Source: a virus. Taken from it: DNA of 25,346 bases. The translations under genes were made by a program, and so were the position numbers. The notes beneath the pieces were generated by a model. It searched no databases, had not been told where the DNA came from, and was given only the letters and a program-made list of their open reading frames with translations. The stretch covers positions 1-25,346 of the IMG/VR virus record IMGVR_UViG_3300025133_000552. One strand, given 5' to 3'. This document shows, one piece after another, positions 3,528 through 25,346 of this stretch (position 1 is its first letter; each line of letters starts with the position of its first letter).

Positions 3528-4988
3528 ATGGCAAAAGTTAAAGATTTGGTGAAGAATTATTTAAACGCACCAGCCGAGTTAGGACTAGATAAATTATTTC
3601 ACTTAATCAAAGAAGTTCAATCTTTGCCCCCTTATCTCGAAGAAGATTCAGAATCGCCCAGTGTTGACCCCGGAGAAGAAAAAACTTTTAGTATCGCTTT
3701 CCCTAAGATTAGAATCACTGAAGACTTTGGCAAGATTGGCACGGAAGACCGTGAAATCATTGAAAAATTTGCCAACAACATTACAGGCGAAACGCTGGAA
3801 GATAAAATTCTTGCCTTAAATAACATTTTAACAGAGAAGAAAGAAAGCGCTACTATTGGAGAAATTCTTTCAACAATGGTAATGTCTGAAATTTTATCTG
3901 CAATTATAACAAACTTTACGGAAGCCGCTGGTGGATTTATTTTTGAGGGTTTTCTTGCTGGACTTTTCGGTGGAACCGCAGTGCAAATAACGAGCGCCGA
4001 AGATATTGGAGCCGATGTAACCGGAAAGCCAATTACAGATGTTATTTTGAACGACAAACATTATTCGTTGAAGTTGCTTGGCGAAAATACCGATGTAAAA
4101 GGTTCCTTTAGAAATATGGTAGAACATTTTAGAGACTTTGATCATGTAATTTATCTTGATGCAAGGCGAGTAGACAAAGATCAAGGATTACAATTTGGTG
4201 AATTTTTGGTTACGTTGGACAATTTCTTAGATATATTTGTGGTTCCCTTCTTAAAAGATGTGACGATAAAGGAACCAGTTCAAGTGGAAACAGGCGCAGA
4301 CCTTAAAAGATTAATGTCATCGCTTATTAAGAACAAACAAGCTATAAAAAGAATCACAACAACAATTCCAATACCTCAATTTGGCAGAGCAACAGCTTTT
4401 CAATACAGCCCAAGTGAACCCACCAGATTAAGTGAAATAAAAGTCAACGATCAAGACTTAAAATATGTTATTGATGTTCTTTTTGATACACCCTCTGATG
4501 AATTGGATGCGTATGCGCCTTTTACAGTTAAGTACGCTGAAAGAAAATTTGAGGGCACAAAAGCTAACACGCTTTTTGGCTCTTACAGAAATGTAGAACG
4601 ATTGCAAGAAGCCATTGATGAGGGCAATAGAGAAGAAATCTTTGCCTCCTTAGAGCTTACTCCCGGCTATGTGAACGAACAGCAATTCGTTCTCACTAAA
4701 AAACAAGTCGAAGACAAGATTAAAAACTTTAAGAATATTGGAACATTGATGATTGGAAAGGAATATATGGAAAAAACTTTTGCCATGTATGCCGATTTGC
4801 TTGCACAAACGATTACTCCGGTCTACGAACAACTTCAATATTTTACTAACAATGTTAATGATTACTTTCTTGGCGTGGGCAATGAAGTCGCCGACCAAGA
4901 CAGAAAACAATATGCGCTTGATGCTATTGAAAATGCAAATAAACTTGCAACGGCTACTCAATCTGCCGTAGAAAAAATTGAGAAATAG
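3528..4988 (+). CDS. unknown phage protein with a possible PD-(D/E)XK-like core
   Basis: This is a large soluble protein of 486 residues that I do not recognise. Residues 135-185 contain GGFIFEGFLAGLFGG, then ITDVILNDKHYSLKLLG. The arrangement Glu140 in a helix, Asp171 in a strand, then Ser-Leu-Lys182 in the next strand is reminiscent of the PD-(D/E)XK nuclease core, with Ser in place of the usual Glu or Gln. The rest looks helical, with a C-terminal amphipathic segment. It could equally be structural. The ribosome binding site AAGGA lies 12 nt before the ATG, slightly far. It is the last gene before the groEL promoter. Confidence 0.6.
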   Translation: MAKVKDLVKNYLNAPAELGLDKLFHLIKEVQSLPPYLEEDSESPSVDPGEEKTFSIAFPKIRITEDFGKIGTEDREIIEKFANNITGETLEDKILALNNILTEKKESATIGEILSTMVMSEILSAIITNFTEAAGGFIFEGFLAGLFGGTAVQITSAEDIGADVTGKPITDVILNDKHYSLKLLGENTDVKGSFRNMVEHFRDFDHVIYLDARRVDKDQGLQFGEFLVTLDNFLDIFVVPFLKDVTIKEPVQVETGADLKRLMSSLIKNKQAIKRITTTIPIPQFGRATAFQYSPSEPTRLSEIKVNDQDLKYVIDVLFDTPSDELDAYAPFTVKYAERKFEGTKANTLFGSYRNVERLQEAIDEGNREEIFASLELTPGYVNEQQFVLTKKQVEDKIKNFKNIGTLMIGKEYMEKTFAMYADLLAQTITPVYEQLQYFTNNVNDYFLGVGNEVADQDRKQYALDAIENANKLATATQSAVEKIEK

Positions 4989-8482: not shown

Positions 8483-9103
8483 TTGTCAACGCAAGCTAAA
8501 GCTAAATACTTGTTATTGTTTGGAATTATCAACTTTACTTTATATTTTGTGATAGCGGCGCTAATTGTAACAAGCGAATATGACTTTCTGCTGCCCTTTG
8601 ATCTTGTTATTCCGTTGATTCCTGAGTTTATTTGGATTTATCATTCTTTTTTTGCTGTAATAATCATTAGTTTTTTAGGACTGATGAAATCTCGGAAGCT
8701 TTTCTTCACATGCCTTTCTGGATTTTTCATAGCTATGGGGATTTTAAGTTTATTTTACGTTATCTTACCGTCTTATTATCCCAGAGATCTTTGGCCTGTT
8801 TCGATGGAATCTCTTTCTGATTGGCTTTTAATCAAAACAAGAGAGATTGACGCTCCCAATAACACGCTGCCATCTGGCCATAATACTTTTTCTTGGATGC
8901 TCGCGTTCTTTATGACAAAAGCGTCTTGTGCTAAAAAGTTCACATGGCTTGTCCCGGCCTATTTCGTTTGGGCTGTTCTTGTAACGGCATCAACTTTGGT
9001 TTTGAAACAGCACTATATTGTAGATGCGGTTTCGGGTATTGTGTTGGCCTACATTTGTTATCGTTTTTCTATGCGATCTATTTATTCTCGTATAAAAGAG
9101 TGA
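8483..9103 (+). CDS. PAP2-superfamily integral membrane phosphatase/phosphotransferase
   Basis: This is a 206-residue protein with about six hydrophobic segments. Two PAP2 motifs are visible: LPSGH at 129-133 with His133, and KQHYIVD at 175-181 with His177 and Asp181. The upstream basic motif (KxxxxxxRP) is degenerate. The superfamily dephosphorylates lipid phosphates (phosphatidate, undecaprenyl pyrophosphate) or transfers inositol phosphate headgroups at the membrane face. A phage copy could modify host envelope lipids. The start is TTG at 8483, supported by GGGGGTAGAG just upstream. The stop overlaps the next gene's GTG. Confidence 0.8.
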   Translation: MSTQAKAKYLLLFGIINFTLYFVIAALIVTSEYDFLLPFDLVIPLIPEFIWIYHSFFAVIIISFLGLMKSRKLFFTCLSGFFIAMGILSLFYVILPSYYPRDLWPVSMESLSDWLLIKTREIDAPNNTLPSGHNTFSWMLAFFMTKASCAKKFTWLVPAYFVWAVLVTASTLVLKQHYIVDAVSGIVLAYICYRFSMRSIYSRIKE

Positions 9104-10006: not shown

Positions 10007-12250
10007 ATGCAAAAACTTCTTGAATCTTTTCGTAGATTTGCGCTTCTCACCGAAGAACAACTTCTCGTTGAAAATCGAATTAAAAAGGTTCAGAAGATTT
10101 ATCCCGAATTGGCAAAGAAACGTGAAGAGTTCGATGGCGAAAGTCTTCTTGACGTTCTCATCCAATCTGATCCCACCGAAGACAAAAAACAAAAATACCT
10201 ACAGGCCGCAGCCAGAATCTTAAAAAACAAGATGGACTTCTTTAAAAGGATGAATATAGAGCCTGCGTGGACACAAGAAAGAGTGGTGAATATAGGCCGG
10301 GACGCCTATTCTCCTTGGCACTGGGCAACAAAAGTAGCTGGAGAAGTTCAAAGATATCACGACTTAAAGAAATTCCTTGAAGATGACGAAAAAGATCTCA
10401 TGGCAATTAAAACTTGGAGCGACCTTGAACTTATAATAAGGAAAGCATATAACAAGAAAATGAACGCGGAGCTTAAGCGGCGTCAAGAAGAGGAAGGCAA
10501 AGAAGAGTCAGATTTCCTCATTACCGATAAAGAAGACCCTAAAACGGGCAAAACCGACCCCCTTGGCAAAGACTTCTTTATGGTTCGCCCTCTAAGTCAC
10601 GAAGCTGCTTGCTATTGGGGCAAAGACGCAGGAGCAAAATACTGTATTTCTCAAAGAGATTCAAACTATTTTGGACAATTTACAGGCGAAGGCCGGACAT
10701 TTTTCTTTTTGTGGATGGCTAACCAGTCAAATTTTACTAAAGAAGAGTGGGGGACCGACAAACGAATAGTTCTTGAATATCTTGGCGAGAATTTTGACAA
10801 AGCATGGAGCAATGTAAATCAGCAACTTGACGGCAACGAGGTCCACAACATTATCAGAACAAACCTTTTTGGATGGGAACTTGTCGCCGCATATGAAGAA
10901 TTCACTCGCTATGATGATTTGAGACTGTTTGAAGAAAGAGACCCAGAAAATTACAAAATATTAATCGACGCAGGTTTAAAGAGAGAAGACAATCCACAAG
11001 TCTGGTGGCTCGAAATATTGAAACCTACTTGGCATCACATTGAAGCGGTAATTCAAGAATCCATCGAACGACATCCTGCTGGCCCACAAATAGAGGAATT
11101 TAAAGCAAAAATAGAAGAGTATGATCTTGACCATATCCAAGTAGATGTTAACGAAGACGATGGTCATTTTTGGTGGCGAGCGATAATGACTTTTGATTTT
11201 GAGGATTTAAAGTGGATGAGAGAAGGCAATTTTCAAGAGTATTTCTATGGCCACATCGACCTTCCTGAAAATCTGCCCTCAGAAGTCGAAAGAGTTCTTG
11301 AAGACAACGGCATTGAATTACATGCGGCAGAGTTGGAAGCGGAAGGCAACCAGTTGTGGGTGACTTTCGAGCAAAATGATGACCATCGACACGGTTATGG
11401 AAACGATGACAGCGATTTAGCGCTCTTTGATCAATTCCTTGGCGACTTACTGAATTATGATCTCGCCCACAAAGCATCTCACGTTGATTTGGTTGATTTG
11501 TTTATTGAGTCGGACATAATAGATATTTCTGATTCGCCCTACGGTCAATTTAGACAACGGGCAAAAGTTGAAGAATTTGAGAATTTTGACGCCGATACCT
11601 CTGGTGGAACCGTTAGCTATTACACAAGAATGGAACTTAAGATACCAGAAATAGGAGAAGTCGTACAGGCGCTAACGAAGGGAATGAGCGCAGATACAGA
11701 TGAACGCGGAAATGTTTCGGCAGCTTCGGATTATTACCAAGCATTAAGGCGATTAAATCTTGAATTTAATAAGGTGTTTGAGCCGGTAGGCCCAGATAAA
11801 AGATTTCAATTTGCCACCAACATGTTGCTTGACGCTTTAAGTAAACATTTCTTAGAGGCCCATACGAACGCTCGCCGCCAACTTAATTTGCCGGGAATAC
11901 CAGCAAAAGAAATGCGACAACTCATTACTCCCCACAAATTTAAATTAAAATGGGCCACTTTAGATGTCGCTGGAAAACAAATAGATACTTTACTGGGGAT
12001 TGCTATTGACAAAGACGACGACCCAGAACAAATGAAAGCCCTTGAAGAGTTTCTTGATTATTTTGATAAAAATTACGATGCCTTTGTGCGAATTGTACAT
12101 GATGTAATGGTTAAAATTTTATGGTCTGCTGCCAGAGAAGCAGCCCAACAAATGGAGGTCATACGCCGCGAACAAGCATTTTCCAATATGAGACCCTTAA
12201 ATGAAAATAGAAAAAGGATTAAAATCAAAATGAAGGTGTCCCGAAGATGA
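10007..12250 (+). CDS. large unknown protein with capsid-targeting-like N-terminus
   Basis: This 747-residue protein has no family I can name. The N-terminus MQKLLESFRRFALLTEEQL resembles the short amphipathic capsid-targeting peptides of T4 internal head proteins (cleaved after a Glu), suggesting a packaged virion protein. Around residues 205-235 lies GAKYCISQRDSNYFGQF followed by FFFLWM; a Gly-x-Lys-(Trp/Tyr)-Cys block of this kind recurs, as I recall, in uncharacterised large phage proteins. The rest is rich in Glu, Asp and Trp. I chose ATG 10007; there is no Shine-Dalgarno, only the motif AAACTATTTAT just before it. The stop overlaps the next ATG (ATGA), so the two giants are translated together. 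Confidence 0.72.
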   Translation: MQKLLESFRRFALLTEEQLLVENRIKKVQKIYPELAKKREEFDGESLLDVLIQSDPTEDKKQKYLQAAARILKNKMDFFKRMNIEPAWTQERVVNIGRDAYSPWHWATKVAGEVQRYHDLKKFLEDDEKDLMAIKTWSDLELIIRKAYNKKMNAELKRRQEEEGKEESDFLITDKEDPKTGKTDPLGKDFFMVRPLSHEAACYWGKDAGAKYCISQRDSNYFGQFTGEGRTFFFLWMANQSNFTKEEWGTDKRIVLEYLGENFDKAWSNVNQQLDGNEVHNIIRTNLFGWELVAAYEEFTRYDDLRLFEERDPENYKILIDAGLKREDNPQVWWLEILKPTWHHIEAVIQESIERHPAGPQIEEFKAKIEEYDLDHIQVDVNEDDGHFWWRAIMTFDFEDLKWMREGNFQEYFYGHIDLPENLPSEVERVLEDNGIELHAAELEAEGNQLWVTFEQNDDHRHGYGNDDSDLALFDQFLGDLLNYDLAHKASHVDLVDLFIESDIIDISDSPYGQFRQRAKVEEFENFDADTSGGTVSYYTRMELKIPEIGEVVQALTKGMSADTDERGNVSAASDYYQALRRLNLEFNKVFEPVGPDKRFQFATNMLLDALSKHFLEAHTNARRQLNLPGIPAKEMRQLITPHKFKLKWATLDVAGKQIDTLLGIAIDKDDDPEQMKALEEFLDYFDKNYDAFVRIVHDVMVKILWSAAREAAQQMEVIRREQAFSNMRPLNENRKRIKIKMKVSRR

Positions 12251-21813: not shown

Positions 21814-21825
21814 TAGGGTATGGTT

Positions 21826-23064
21826 ATGGAAAATAAAGAAGAATTCGACCTTGACAAGCATATTCTGGTTTTACTGAAGGACGAGCCGTTTTTCGCGGCT
21901 TTGTCCCGACGTATAAACAAAAGAAAAGCTTATTTCATTCCTACTGCTGGCGTAAGGGTTGACCCCAAAACCGCCCAATTTGAAATGGTCTATAATCCAG
22001 ACTTTTTTCTAAGTCTCACAAAACCACAACGACTTGACGTGCTGAAACATGAATTTTATCATTTGATTTTTCTGCATGTTACATCTCGAAAACCGGAAGA
22101 CGTAAATCCTTTAATGTGGAATTACGCTACCGACCTCTCTATTAATTCTCACTTGAACAACTTACCAGAAAATTGTTTGAAGCCGGGAGTAGACTATTTT
22201 GAAGATTTTCCTTCTGGCTTGACTGCTGAAAAATACTTGAAGCTTCTTGAAAAGAAGAAAAAAGAAGAAGAAGAGAAAGAAGGTAAAGACCAAAAAGGTC
22301 AAAAGGGAGACGGTCAAGAAGGGGAAGAAGGAAAAAGTGGTTCGGGATTCCCTGAAGACGGACAGTTTGATAGTCACGACGACTGGTCAAACGATGCAGA
22401 ACAGGGACAAGAGCGTCAACAAGCTGCTGATATCGCAAAGGAGCGCATCAAAGAGTTTGTTAAGGATGCTGCCGAAGAAGCCCAAAAGTCTAATTCTGGT
22501 TGGGGTTCGATTCCTGAATCGGTTCGACGTGAAATTATTGCCAACTTGCAAACAAATGTTGATTGGCGTAAGGTGTTGCGCTATTTTGTCAAGACAAGTT
22601 TGCGCTCAAGTCGCCGGAGTACTGTAAAAAGACTCAATAAACGTTATCGTTACATTCATCCCGGTAAAAAAGTGTCCAGAATGGCTAAGATTGCAATTTC
22701 TATTGACCAATCTGGTTCAGTTAGCGATGCAATGCTTGAACTGTTCTTTGCAGAATTGAATAAGCTTGCAAAGCTTGCGACGTTTACCATCGTGCCGTTT
22801 GACACAAGAGTAGAGCCAGAATTAGTTTATGAATGGAAAAAAGGCACTACTCATCAGACGACACGAGTGATGTGTGGTGGAACTGATTTTGATGCTCCAA
22901 CAGAGTATGTCAATAAACAAAGCTTTGATGGTCACATTGTTCTCACAGATATGGCCGCACCCAAACCAAAAGCTTCAAAATGTCAGCGCATGTGGATGAC
23001 CACAAAAGCTTGTTTGAGCTATCAGTATTTCCAAACTAACGAAAAAGTTATTGTTGTAGACTAG
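21826..23064 (+). CDS. DUF2201-type putative metallopeptidase with VWA domain
   Basis: This 412-residue protein (counted from ATG 21826) has an N-terminal domain with the zinc-protease motif HEFYH (75-79), followed by a Lys/Glu/Gly-rich linker (about 140-195) and a C-terminal VWA domain with MIDAS residues DQSGS (294-298), GGTDF (351-355) and TD (374-375). This is the architecture of DUF2201/VWA-like predicted metallopeptidases found beside MoxR ATPases. ATG 21826 has AGGG about 7 nt upstream; ATG 21820 coincides with the expected transcription start and would make a leaderless mRNA. The separate promoter for each partner is unusual for such a pair. Confidence 0.85.
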   Translation: MENKEEFDLDKHILVLLKDEPFFAALSRRINKRKAYFIPTAGVRVDPKTAQFEMVYNPDFFLSLTKPQRLDVLKHEFYHLIFLHVTSRKPEDVNPLMWNYATDLSINSHLNNLPENCLKPGVDYFEDFPSGLTAEKYLKLLEKKKKEEEEKEGKDQKGQKGDGQEGEEGKSGSGFPEDGQFDSHDDWSNDAEQGQERQQAADIAKERIKEFVKDAAEEAQKSNSGWGSIPESVRREIIANLQTNVDWRKVLRYFVKTSLRSSRRSTVKRLNKRYRYIHPGKKVSRMAKIAISIDQSGSVSDAMLELFFAELNKLAKLATFTIVPFDTRVEPELVYEWKKGTTHQTTRVMCGGTDFDAPTEYVNKQSFDGHIVLTDMAAPKPKASKCQRMWMTTKACLSYQYFQTNEKVIVVD

Positions 23065-23075
23065 AAGGAGCAAAT

Positions 23076-23279
23076 ATGACGATAGGCGACACAGTTAAAC
23101 TTAAAGATATTCCCCAGAACAACCAGCGATTTTTGAGCAAATATCAAAATAAGACCGGCAAAATTGTAGATGAGCAAGCGTTAGTTAGCAAGAAGCGTTA
23201 TTTCCGTGTCTTGTTTGACGGCGCATGTTCCTATGAGGATTTGGGAAGTTGGCGATTCGAAATTTTTTCGACAGAATGA
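23076..23279 (+). CDS. GDLV-family relative (67 aa, GDTV variant)
   Basis: The product opens MTIGDTVKLKDIPQNNQ and continues KTGKIVDEQA, YFRVLFDGACSYEDLG and FEIFSTE. Thr replaces Leu in the motif, but the strand order matches. A strong AGAAGGAG ribosome binding site precedes the ATG, 11 nt after the VWA gene, so it likely shares that transcript. It overlaps the next gene by 4 nt (ATGA). Confidence 0.68.
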   Translation: MTIGDTVKLKDIPQNNQRFLSKYQNKTGKIVDEQALVSKKRYFRVLFDGACSYEDLGSWRFEIFSTE

Positions 23280-23473
23280 TGCCTCCTCCTCGACCCATTA
23301 AAGTTGGAGATTTGGTAACTCACTTGAGCAACAATATGCTTGGGCTTGTTTACGAGGTGTACCGATGCAAGGACTATTCAGATTTGATGATACGAGTCCA
23401 ATGGTACGACGGCAGAACAGACAAGCTTAACGCCAAACTTTCCTATTGGCACGATGAAATTGAATTAGTTTGA
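23276..23473 (+). CDS. GDLV-family small SH3/KOW-like protein (65 aa)
   Basis: The product opens MMPPPRPIKVGDLVTHLS and continues MLGLVYEVYRCKDY, IRVQWYDGRTD and DEIELV. It has a short Pro-rich leader before the motif, unlike array members. ATG 23276 overlaps the preceding stop; an adjacent ATG at 23279 is equally possible, and no ribosome binding site is evident. Confidence 0.68.
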   Translation: MMPPPRPIKVGDLVTHLSNNMLGLVYEVYRCKDYSDLMIRVQWYDGRTDKLNAKLSYWHDEIELV

Positions 23474-23481
23474 GGTAATCA

Positions 23482-23655
23482 ATGAAGAAACAAATACAAC
23501 AGTATCTTGACGAAATAGCAGTCTTAAAGGCCGAAAACAATCAACTTAGTCAGAAGATTAAAATGTTGGAGACCAAACTTTATTCAGCAGAAAAACGTTG
23601 TGCTTGTTTTCGCAACAATCAAAAGCTATGCGAGGACACAAATGAAAATCGGTGA
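23482..23655 (+). CDS. small coiled-coil protein embedded in a GDLV cluster
   Basis: The 57-residue product is a likely leucine-zipper coiled coil: IQQYLDEIAVLKAENNQL with hydrophobic heptad positions, then KRCACFRNNQKLC with three cysteines. GAGGTAATCA precedes the ATG exactly as in the arrays, and its 3' end carries the junction tail (Asn-Glu-Asn-Arg) with a 14-nt overlap into the next GDLV gene. It therefore occupies a cassette position without being a family member. Confidence 0.66.
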   Translation: MKKQIQQYLDEIAVLKAENNQLSQKIKMLETKLYSAEKRCACFRNNQKLCEDTNENR

Positions 23656-23791
23656 TTTGGTCATGTATAGAAACAAGTTTCATATCGTTACAAAGACTTA
23701 CGGAACAATGGTGTCACTTAGCGGCATGGACCTTAACAGGGTTTTTCGTAAAGAAGAAATAAAAGTTATAAATAAATCAAATAAAGCTTGA
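23642..23791 (+). CDS. GDLV-family small SH3/KOW-like protein (49 aa)
   Basis: The product opens MKIGDLVMYRNKFHIVTK and continues TMVSLSGMDLNRVF and EEIKVINKSNKA. It is one of the shortest members. The ATG lies inside the coiled-coil gene. The TGA stop (23789-23791) falls within the TTGACA box of the promoter for the split tRNA. Confidence 0.68.
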   Translation: MKIGDLVMYRNKFHIVTKTYGTMVSLSGMDLNRVFRKEEIKVINKSNKA

Positions 23792-23816
23792 CAACCACTT
23801 AAATCTATGAGATAAT
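23788..23816 (+). promoter_or_regulatory. sigma-70-type promoter for the split tRNA
   Basis: AAGC, TTGACA (23788-23793), 17-bp spacer, GATAAT (23811-23816). Transcription should start near 23823, about 30 nt before the tRNA, so a 5' leader must be removed. Confidence 0.8.
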
Positions 23817-23852
23817 ACCTACAGAAACAATCGAAAAAGGATTGAAAAATAT

Positions 23853-24068
23853 GCCAAGGTAGCTCAGTGGAAGAGCGTCACCCAGTAGGAAGCCAAAAGC
23901 CCACCGTGACCACAACAAACACGAGATTGATCCTCTCGGTGGAAAAAAAATGTAGCGTGTTATCGCTGCGCGGGGGTCTGGGAAATAGGCTGAAACACTG
24001 CAAAGGTTTTGAGCAGTGGAACTACGTTACGAGGTGGAGGTCGTCGGTTCGAACCCGTGCCCTTGGTA
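23853..24068 (+). tRNA. tRNA-Val (anticodon UAC) interrupted by a 143-nt insert
   Basis: The two halves of one cloverleaf are separated. The 5' part (23853-23883) gives acceptor GCCAAGG, D arm GCTC/GAGC, and anticodon stem TCACC plus C32. The 3' part (24027-24068) gives TTACGA, GGTGG, the T arm and CCTTGGT plus A73. Joined, the loop is CTTACGA with U33 and anticodon TAC (Val), and the stems pair, with G-U at 1-72 and at 27-43. Without removal of 23884-24026 there is no U33 and no 7-nt loop. The T stem pairs only if one base (24058) is bulged. CCA is not encoded. It could also be a decayed, non-functional tRNA. Confidence 0.78.
23884..24026 (+). other. tRNA intron-like insert (143 nt, structured, no ORF)
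   Basis: It lies between tRNA positions 32 and 33. Its ends pair (GTAG 23885-23888 with CTAC 24022-24025). Nested inside are AGCC/GGCT (23891-23894/23988-23991), CCACCG/CGGTGG (23901-23906/23937-23942), hairpin GTAGCG/CGCTGC (23952-23957/23964-23969) and hairpin CACTGC/GCAGTG (23996-24001/24013-24018). The last base is G, as in group I introns, but the 5' exon ends in C rather than U, no P7-like core is evident, and it is shorter than typical group I introns. The class is unassigned. Confidence 0.68.
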
Positions 24069-24080
24069 CTAAAATAAAGC

Positions 24081-24109
24081 TTGACTTATTAATTTTAATA
24101 TGAGAGAAT
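24081..24109 (+). promoter_or_regulatory. sigma-70-type promoter for GDLV array 2, candidate leaderless
   Basis: AAGC, TTGACT (24081-24086), 17-bp spacer, GAGAAT (24104-24109). The expected start of transcription coincides with the ATG at 24116, and no ribosome binding site is seen before it. Confidence 0.72.
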
Positions 24110-24115
24110 ATAAGT

Positions 24116-24307
24116 ATGAAATGTGGAGATTTAGTAAGAATTCCAAAAGCCCGAATTGGCGTACCCGCTAACTCGCTTGGTCTTATCGTCGGAGCGAATA
24201 GAAGCGAACCAAGACATTGGCTTATTTACGACATCCAACTTATGAATACAGACAATCGCGTTGTCAGGCGACTTGGGCGAGACTTAGAGGTAGTAAAATG
24301 CAAGTAG
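24116..24307 (+). CDS. GDLV array 2, member 1 (63 aa)
   Basis: The product opens MKCGDLVRIPKARIGVP and continues SLGLIVGANRSE, LIYDIQLMNTDNR and LEVVKCK. It lacks a Shine-Dalgarno and heads the chain directly after the promoter, so it is probably read from a leaderless mRNA. Its last codons carry GAGGTAGTAAA, the ribosome binding site of member 2 (10-nt overlap). Confidence 0.71.
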   Translation: MKCGDLVRIPKARIGVPANSLGLIVGANRSEPRHWLIYDIQLMNTDNRVVRRLGRDLEVVKCK

Positions 24308-24474
24308 GCGACTTGGTTGTGAGAACTTACGGAGAGGGTCAACGTCCAAGAGCACTTGTTGTGGGGTTTGGGTATAAACCCTCCATCGCAAAAATAATAT
24401 GGTTGGGCACTGACGCGATTATTCAGTTTGGTACAAGCCACTTGGAGGTCATCCAATGCAAAGAGGCGATTTAG
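24298..24474 (+). CDS. GDLV array 2, member 2 (58 aa)
   Basis: The product opens MQVGDLVVRTYGEGQRP and continues ALVVGFGYKPSIAKIIWLG and HLEVIQCKEAI. From here Gln replaces Lys at position 2 in most members. It runs past the usual end and overlaps member 3 by 19 nt, the largest overlap in the array. Confidence 0.72.
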   Translation: MQVGDLVVRTYGEGQRPRALVVGFGYKPSIAKIIWLGTDAIIQFGTSHLEVIQCKEAI

Positions 24475-24635
24475 TTCTGACCACTTTGGCAGGAATAGGT
24501 AAACCATCAAGAAGCGTGTACGGCTTGCTTATAAAGCCAATTGCAACAAGTTTTTGGAGTGTTTTTCTCTTTGAAGAGGAAACATTTATCTGCCTTCCCT
24601 TCGCAGCGTTCGAGGTCATAAATGCAAGTCGGTGA
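24456..24635 (+). CDS. GDLV array 2, member 3 (59 aa)
   Basis: The product opens MQRGDLVLTTLAGIGKP and continues YGLLIKPIATSFWSVFLFEEE and FEVINASR. It is hydrophobic in the middle and has Arg in place of Val before GDLV. The ATG has GGAGGTCATCC as ribosome binding site. Confidence 0.72.
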   Translation: MQRGDLVLTTLAGIGKPSRSVYGLLIKPIATSFWSVFLFEEETFICLPFAAFEVINASR

Positions 24636-24777
24636 TTTAGTAAAGTTAAAAGAAGACAATGACGCAACAGGCTTAATTGTTGCCGCAGAAGGGAACTTCT
24701 TTCACATTCAGTGGCTCGATGGCTTTTGTTTTACCCGCTACGATGATGAATTGGAGGTAATCAGTGCAAGTAGGTGA
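24622..24777 (+). CDS. GDLV array 2, member 4 (51 aa)
   Basis: The product opens MQVGDLVKLKEDNDATG and continues LIVAAEGNFFHIQWLDGF and LEVISASR. This is the most compact complete copy in the array and a good guide to the domain's minimum: motif, GLIV strand, IQW strand, DG turn and LEVI end. It has a 14-nt overlap at both ends. Confidence 0.74.
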   Translation: MQVGDLVKLKEDNDATGLIVAAEGNFFHIQWLDGFCFTRYDDELEVISASR

Positions 24778-24940
24778 CTTAGTGAAGCACAAAAGCTCTG
24801 GCGACATTGGATTAGTTACGGAAACGCCATGGTGGGCGAAACGAGCAAAAGTTCATACTACTACTGTTCATTTTTTTGATGATAATAGGGGAGCAAACTG
24901 TATATGTTCTGCTTTGGAGGTCATCAGTGCAAGTCGGTGA
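24764..24940 (+). CDS. GDLV array 2, member 5 (58 aa)
   Basis: The product opens MQVGDLVKHKSSGDIG and continues LVTETPWWAKRAKVHTTTVHF and ALEVISASR. The middle carries a Trp-Trp and a Thr-rich stretch not seen in neighbours. The GTG start has GGAGGTAATCA as ribosome binding site. Confidence 0.73.
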   Translation: MQVGDLVKHKSSGDIGLVTETPWWAKRAKVHTTTVHFFDDNRGANCICSALEVISASR

Positions 24941-25103
24941 TTTAGTAAAATATAGATATGGTCAACAAGACCTTGGAATTATAATTGAAAGAAAACAAGA
25001 GACAAAAGAGCACACCCCAAAGCTCAGAGTAATGTGGGTTGGATTCCGCAATCTCACAGATTGGATGCGACCAACAGGATTGGAGGTAATCTCATGCAAG
25101 TAG
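24927..25103 (+). CDS. GDLV array 2, member 6 (58 aa)
   Basis: The product opens MQVGDLVKYRYGQQDLG and continues IIIERKQETKEHT, LRVMWVGFRN and LEVISCK. The GTG start lies in the previous gene. The end switches to the SCK type because the next overlap is 10 nt instead of 14. Confidence 0.73.
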   Translation: MQVGDLVKYRYGQQDLGIIIERKQETKEHTPKLRVMWVGFRNLTDWMRPTGLEVISCK

Positions 25104-25255
25104 GTGATTTGGTAAAAAAGCGAAACTGCGTCGGAGTTGGCATTGTGGTCAAGATTACTGACGAGTTTGCACTTGTTTGCGCCGAAACAAAATGGTCGCC
25201 GCTTGGTCATTGTAAAGTTTGGGTTGGGCTGCGCCGTCTTGAGGTAGTAAAATGA
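25094..25255 (+). CDS. GDLV array 2, member 7 (53 aa)
   Basis: The product opens MQVGDLVKKRNCVGVG and continues IVVKITDEFALVCAETKW and RRLEVVK. Two Cys are in the core. The ATG follows GGAGGTAATCTC; the gene ends in ATGA overlap with member 8. Confidence 0.73.
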   Translation: MQVGDLVKKRNCVGVGIVVKITDEFALVCAETKWSPLGHCKVWVGLRRLEVVK

Positions 25256-25346
25256 AAGTAGGTGATTTGGTAAAGCTCACCGATTATGGAGCAAACACTA
25301 AATATGGCGTTGTGACAATAGACGGTCAATTCAATGTCAGAGTGCA
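25252..25346 (+). CDS. GDLV array 2, member 8 (partial, cut by window end)
   Basis: The visible 31 codons read MKVGDLVKLTDYGANTKYG, VVTIDGQFNVRV. The gene is open at the window edge, so the array continues beyond. Its ribosome binding site is GAGGTAGTAAA, and position 2 returns to Lys. Confidence 0.72.
   Translation, partial: MKVGDLVKLTDYGANTKYGVVTIDGQFNVRV

Follow-up and report, generated by a model that had tools for sequence, protein, structure and literature searches.

A phage tRNA-Val gene family split in the anticodon loop by a compact structured RNA, a probable tRNA intron of a new kind

A family of phage tRNA-Val-like genes carries a structured RNA of 109–143 nt in the anticodon loop; judged from sequence comparison, this insert probably represents a tRNA intron of a new kind. 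The position of the insert, its constant ends, its covarying helices and the conserved tRNA body recur in 12 distinct sequences.

The split tRNA-Val gene and its surroundings

The window (i.e. the whole stretch of virus DNA analysed, 25 346 nt) codes for a GroEL-like chaperonin, a head maturation protease and an AAA ATPase. The nearest relatives of its proteins (∼50–79% identity) are found in virus contigs, several of them 150–190 kb long; we infer that the window is a fragment of a T4-like myovirus. The ORF next to and following the AAA ATPase (21820–23064) has the PHROGs label ‘HNH endonuclease’; motifs KHEFYHL and SIDQSGS are visible by eye in its predicted product, which is more likely a metallopeptidase/VWA-type protein than an HNH endonuclease. 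Short similar ORFs with N-terminus M(Q/K)(V/C/I)GDLV make up an array (23076–25346), with the split tRNA in the middle of it; relatives of these ORFs are present in other phages as well.

The tRNA-Val gene (23853–24068, plus strand, as are all features of the window described below) is broken between tRNA positions 32 and 33 by a 143-nt insert, A…G, the proposed intron (23884–24026); the halves and the insert lie where the initial annotation had placed them. The 5′ half (23853–23883) includes the acceptor strand GCCAAGG (23853–23859), the D arm (23862–23876), the 5′ strand of the anticodon stem TCACC (23878–23882) and C32 (23883). The 3′ half (24027–24068) starts with U33 and anticodon TAC (24027–24030), followed by G37 and A38, the 3′ strand of the anticodon stem GGTGG (24033–24037), the T arm with one extra base (24043–24060), the acceptor strand CCTTGGT (24061–24067) and A73; CCA is not encoded. 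The in silico deletion of 23884–24026 does restore the anticodon arm, as had been claimed: ARAGORN then calls tRNA-Val(tac) with loop CTTACGA on stem TCACC/GGTGG. The boundaries of the insert were deduced from the tRNA fold and are uncertain by 1 nt (the alternative, 23883–24025, would leave G32 in place of C32). In the unspliced form, the gene was detected neither by ARAGORN in normal mode nor by the Rfam tRNA model; the intron mode of ARAGORN found the right 5′ junction and a wrong 3′ junction, and named the gene Ser. The T stem has one surplus U (GTCGG/CCG-T-GC, 24043–24060), overlooked earlier; since the extra base is common to the window and its nearest homologue, L199, it is not a sequencing error.

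A putative sigma-70-type promoter of the extended −10 type (TTGACA-17-GATAAT, 23788–23816, with TG before the second hexamer), a match to 11 of 12 consensus positions, is situated 36 nt upstream of the tRNA, and not 30 nt as first reported. By eye, TTGACA/TATAAT-type sites are also seen close upstream of the split tRNA in homologues L211 and L219, together with a leader, TTCTTTAAAA, which we take to resemble a boxA antitermination site. The dedicated promoter is confirmed as a sequence match in the window and is visible by eye in these two members; several other members, located within tRNA arrays, have no obvious promoter of their own. A separate region of contig L010 (11920–12160) has a window-like promoter, then a leader resembling boxA, and after it a GC-rich stretch that looks structured and contains no recognised RNA family.

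Homologues, covariation and carrier genomes

The family includes 12 distinct sequences (the window and 11 more) in 16 contigs, from a dozen or more phage lineages; every homologue has a tRNA-Val-like body with an insert in the anticodon loop. A BLAST search over the whole records of 50 relatives revealed the same split tRNA in L087 and L088. A search of IMG/VR with the junction pattern TAGCTCAG…GAGCG…AGTAGGA produced L187, L188, L190, L195 and L197 along with copies of L087 and L088; the same pattern in GTDB contigs produced L199, a phage-like contig within a Flavobacteriales MAG with genes for a YqaJ recombinase and a KaiC/RecA-like ATPase and with a tRNA array. A covariance model, R1, built from eight members, identified L210 and L211 in the records of relatives, and a two-ended pattern identified L217 (a 284-kb phage contig), L219 and L221. 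The R1 score was 65–119 bits for four distinct members outside its training set and 132.5 bits for the window, which is a member of that set.

A scan with a wider 5′ pattern gave no additional members and a scan with a 3′ pattern gave known members only; the family is therefore rare in the collection searched or has members outside these patterns. Further copies were not found in 395 genomes of the class of the Flavobacteriales MAG, and BLAST matches of the element with its flanks in 50 697 phage records were limited to tRNA-like pieces. Five matches to a 16-mer of the insert alone were judged to be due to chance. Two contigs picked up by the 5′ pattern, L192 and L193, had no R1 match and were not accepted as family members: L193 has a tRNA-like gene (∼4357–4481) with a 50-nt anticodon-arm insert beginning with AGTAGGAGTCCAAAGG, L192 has a tRNA-like gene with an anticodon-arm insert on the reverse strand near 11373, and both are family-like at the first bases only. 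An ARAGORN ‘intron tRNA-Pro’ in L010 overlaps a coding stretch and was taken as a false call. Because the insert recurs in many assemblies made independently, it is not an assembly artefact, and chance is very far from explaining its presence in 12 distinct sequences. The comparison with the same tRNA in insert-free relatives, suggested in the initial annotation, was sought, and no intron-free orthologue was found (the tRNA-Val of genome G058 is not an orthologue).

In all 12 members, the insert starts with A-G-[U/C]-A-G-G-A; it ends with CUAY-G or CUGC-G. The insert sequences were aligned by hand, and each row was verified verbatim against the DNA. The ends of the insert pair with each other, as predicted initially, in helix P1 (in the window, GTAG 23885–23888 with CTAC 24022–24025), which is paired in 12 of 12 members with one compensatory pair, GCAG/CTGC in L211; with so few variants P1 is statistically weak. 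Within P1 there follow a branched arm, P6 (23904–23973), and a hairpin, Pc (23996–24018), with a near-invariant GAAA as linker. The P6 arm is composed of P6a (CCGTG 23904–23908/CGCGG 23969–23973; 100% paired), P6b (CCAC 23910–23913/GTGG 23939–23942; 98%), P6c (CGAGA 23922–23926/TCTCG 23934–23938; 98%) and, between the 5′ strands of P6b and P6c, a bulge AACAAACA (23914–23921), which is A-rich and has a terminal AACA in most long members. Folding of the window predicts one more hairpin inside P6 (TAGCG/CGCTG, 23953–23968), missing from shorter homologues. The Pc hairpin (CACTGC 23996–24001/GCAGTG 24013–24018) has loop AAAGGTTTTGA and is 97% paired (n = 12 for Pc as for all three P6 helices).

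Compensatory changes back P6a, P6b, P6c and Pc. When 3′ strands were permuted among distinct members (5000 trials), the observed pairing was reached in 10 permutations for P6a and in one for each of P6b, P6c and Pc; these figures ignore relatedness and concern helices picked by eye from the same sequences and, hence, are not exact probabilities. A further possible helix, Pa (AGCC 23891–23894 with GGCT 23988–23991, 75% paired), was rejected, as its strands paired no better than permuted ones. Non-nested covarying pairs were also looked for, with no coherent result, and no further long-range pairing came to light. Folding energy by itself is unexceptional in the window (z-score −1.7 for the insert and −0.7 for the whole RNA), and the case for structure therefore depends on comparison of homologues. 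The initial suggestions of a structured insert and of an intron or unknown ribozyme both stand, the first by virtue of the covarying helices and not of the folding energy.

The tRNA body is also maintained: among the 12 members the acceptor stem is 100% paired, the anticodon stem 95% and the T stem 90%, all with compensatory changes (e.g. acceptor stems ATCGGGG/CCTCGAT in L195 and AGCAGGG/CCCTGCT in L211), so the tRNA is under selection. With the insert removed, ARAGORN calls tRNA-Val(TAC) in 8 of 12 members, the window included, and tRNA-Arg(ACG) in L088 and L190; it makes no call at the normal threshold in L195 and L210. In these last four, removal of the insert leaves no canonical loop (7 nt, on a stem of 5 bp). 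The 3′ piece of the loop is TTACGA in six members (the window, L087, L187, L197, L217 and L219), CTACGA in L199 and L211, TACGA in L088 and L190, GACGA in L210 and GACA in L195. A35 and C36, the Val-type letters, are invariant; the window and five others have U33, and L199 and L211 have C33. In L190, C56 and the G18-G19 pair are lost. The base preceding the 5′ junction is C in eight members (including the window), U in three and A in L210.

Besides the split gene, the 185.6-kb and 190.6-kb carriers have tRNA-Leu(TAA), tRNA-Met and, in one of them, tRNA-Arg(TCT); the split gene is therefore the only tRNA-Val of these two phages. The phage of L195 is the only carrier with an intact tRNA-Val(TAC), unrelated to the split gene, and its split copy has an irregular loop, which is consistent with the split gene as the normal source of tRNA-Val(UAC). 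This interpretation is weakened by the phages of L088 (95-kb contig) and L210 (190-kb contig), which depart from the L195 pattern: the split copy is non-canonical, yet there is no intact tRNA-Val. Nearest relatives can also differ between insert and exons. The insert of L210 is closest to that of L195 (0.94 identity versus 0.86 for the exons), while its exons are closest to those of L219, which suggests recombination or movement of the insert. For the pair L190/L217 the identity is 0.88 for inserts and 0.73 for exons.

Two other RNA elements were noticed in carriers and related contigs. A phage tmRNA gene with tag ANDNVEFDYALAA is located at 8839–9249 of L269, from the 185-kb carrier G008. Another noncoding element that is conserved, the second besides the insert, has the sequence ATCACCGGGCAC…GTGGCATGCCGGTTG and occurs in L195 (1674), L217 (reverse strand, ∼4331–4405) and L010 (12256); it lies ∼40–300 nt from the split tRNA in L217 and L195, no split tRNA is nearby in L010, and in L010 it had no Rfam match.

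Comparison with known introns and ribozymes

The anticodon loop is the usual site of tRNA introns and a classic site of group I introns, which are known in bacterial tRNAs such as cyanobacterial tRNA-Leu and Azoarcus tRNA-Ile; to our knowledge, the tRNA introns described in bacteria belong to the group I ribozymes. The insert resembles them in its anticodon-loop position, its terminal G and its folded structure. The initial annotation had proposed a covariance-model search with group I, group II and tRNA models; we ran Rfam release 15 (4227 families, groups I and II among them), and no family matched the element at E ≤ 10 in the window or at E ≤ 5 in eight homologues, apart from weak matches to YrlA (Y RNA-like; E 1–3 in two homologues) taken as chance. 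This result lends no support to a group I, group II or HDV-like identity, or to any other catalogued ribozyme class.

A reduced group I intron, one of the options raised earlier, is very improbable on this comparison. In its favour are the classic site and the terminal G in 12 of 12 members (a single base, weak alone). Unlike the bacterial group I introns of tRNAs, however, the insert is shorter and, at 109–143 nt, has no recognisable P3–P7 core (the lack of a visible P7 had been noted correctly, as had that of U before the 5′ junction of the window); U at this junction is not conserved in the family, where C mostly takes its place, and P1 pairs insert with insert, which also counts against group I. 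As to group II, there was no match to domain V in Rfam, and the inserts begin with AGYAGGA and not with GUGYG.

All phage group I introns known at the time of a 2014 review were in protein genes (PMC3984707). The nearest precedent in the open-licence literature is the enigmatic introns reported from tRNA genes (Tyr, Thr) of Lak megaphages, phages of gut Prevotella (PMC6784885). In both cases, phage tRNA genes are split by an insert of no recognised class, but the host tRNAs differ (Val here), and R1 found nothing convincing in two Lak-A1 genomes, MK250015 and MK250016 (best E-value 4.7). Theta (HDV-like) ribozymes, which adjoin phage tRNAs (PMC10879173), are likewise structured RNAs associated with phage tRNAs; here, in contrast, the RNA is inside the anticodon loop and has no HDV-type Rfam match. 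With the protein-spliced tRNA introns of archaea and eukaryotes the family shares an anticodon-loop insert and a constant tRNA body; unlike them, its relatives are in bacterial phages and P1 is formed entirely within the insert. Inspection of the 12 aligned members revealed no bulge-helix-bulge across exon and intron: the 4-bp helix is intronic, and its 3′ side has a stretch of 4–6 nt ahead of the anticodon stem.

Possible fates of the insert RNA

The reading that we prefer, with confidence about evenly balanced, is that the insert belongs to a new family of compact structured introns whose own fold would catalyse or guide excision, leaving tRNA-Val(UAC). It is supported by the constant ends and the anticodon-loop site in 12 members and by the restored Val(TAC) in 8 of 12. 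The RNA would be transcribed from the upstream promoter or as part of a tRNA operon, as the promoter-like sequences suggest; upon folding of the tRNA body, P1 and the anticodon stem would bring both junctions together (the anticodon stem is backed by comparison; P1 is conserved, with little variation to test). The insert would then be cut at A…G and the halves joined; the product, once charged, would decode as tRNA-Val with anticodon UAC within a small phage tRNA set that appears to read mostly A-ending codons. Genes for Rnl1, Rnl2 and RtcB ligases were absent from carriers G008 and G017 (185–190 kb) by three Pfam models, which define the scope of this exclusion, so joining there would need the host or the RNA itself. 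As these carriers encode none of the tested ligases, catalysis or guidance most likely comes from the RNA itself, with RtcB-type repair by the host as a possible alternative for joining. In its boldest and rather unlikely form, the proposal sees in the insert a self-splicing ribozyme of a new class, which would release the phage tRNA-Val without protein and, at 109 nt, would be among the smallest natural ones.

Several observations disfavour simple splicing: C33 in two members, the missing canonical loop in four, the extra base in the T stem of the window, the losses in L190 and the lack of a recognised catalytic core. The main rival, given that a part of the family no longer yields a canonical loop, is a noncoding RNA of ∼180–217 nt that retains the insert as its working part, e.g. 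as an infection decoy or regulator, with the tRNA ends (through RNase P, 3′ trimming and CCA addition) serving to process and stabilise the molecule. We regard this as a real possibility, if less likely than the intron. The irregular loops and C33 would be tolerated in such an RNA; inserts more similar than exons in several pairs also fit it, as does L190, where D-/T-loop contacts are eroded and the insert helices persist. Most members, however, keep the Val-type AC letters and the loop, which would be needless if the RNA stayed unspliced; compensatory change maintains the anticodon stem, and the gene is often within tRNA arrays, besides being the only tRNA-Val of two large carriers. Under the intron reading, the four members without a canonical loop would be relics or would have acquired another role.

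Cutting and joining by separate activities, with self-cleavage or a nuclease followed by host RtcB or another ligase, seems improbable. The constant ends and P1 would place the cut sites together, RtcB was detected in bacterial controls (E. coli among them), and the 284-kb contig has one Rnl1-like ligase gene, the only carrier with such a gene; still, none of the three RNA ligase families is represented in the two largest of the remaining carriers, and no small self-cleaving ribozyme of Rfam matched. The idea of a degenerate element in a dead tRNA, put forward in the initial annotation, finds some footing in the T stem of the window and in the eroded members L190 and L195; for the family it is contradicted by compensatory changes that keep tRNA and insert stems in twelve homologues across lineages, and we consider it the most remote of the explanations.

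As ordinary tRNA finders overlook the split gene, counts of phage tRNAs may be incomplete. The molecule is short enough to be transcribed and tested in one experiment, which makes splicing directly testable. A covarying RNA of 109–143 nt in the anticodon loop, outside known classes, would represent a splicing RNA of a new type or else a novel design of noncoding RNA framed by a tRNA.
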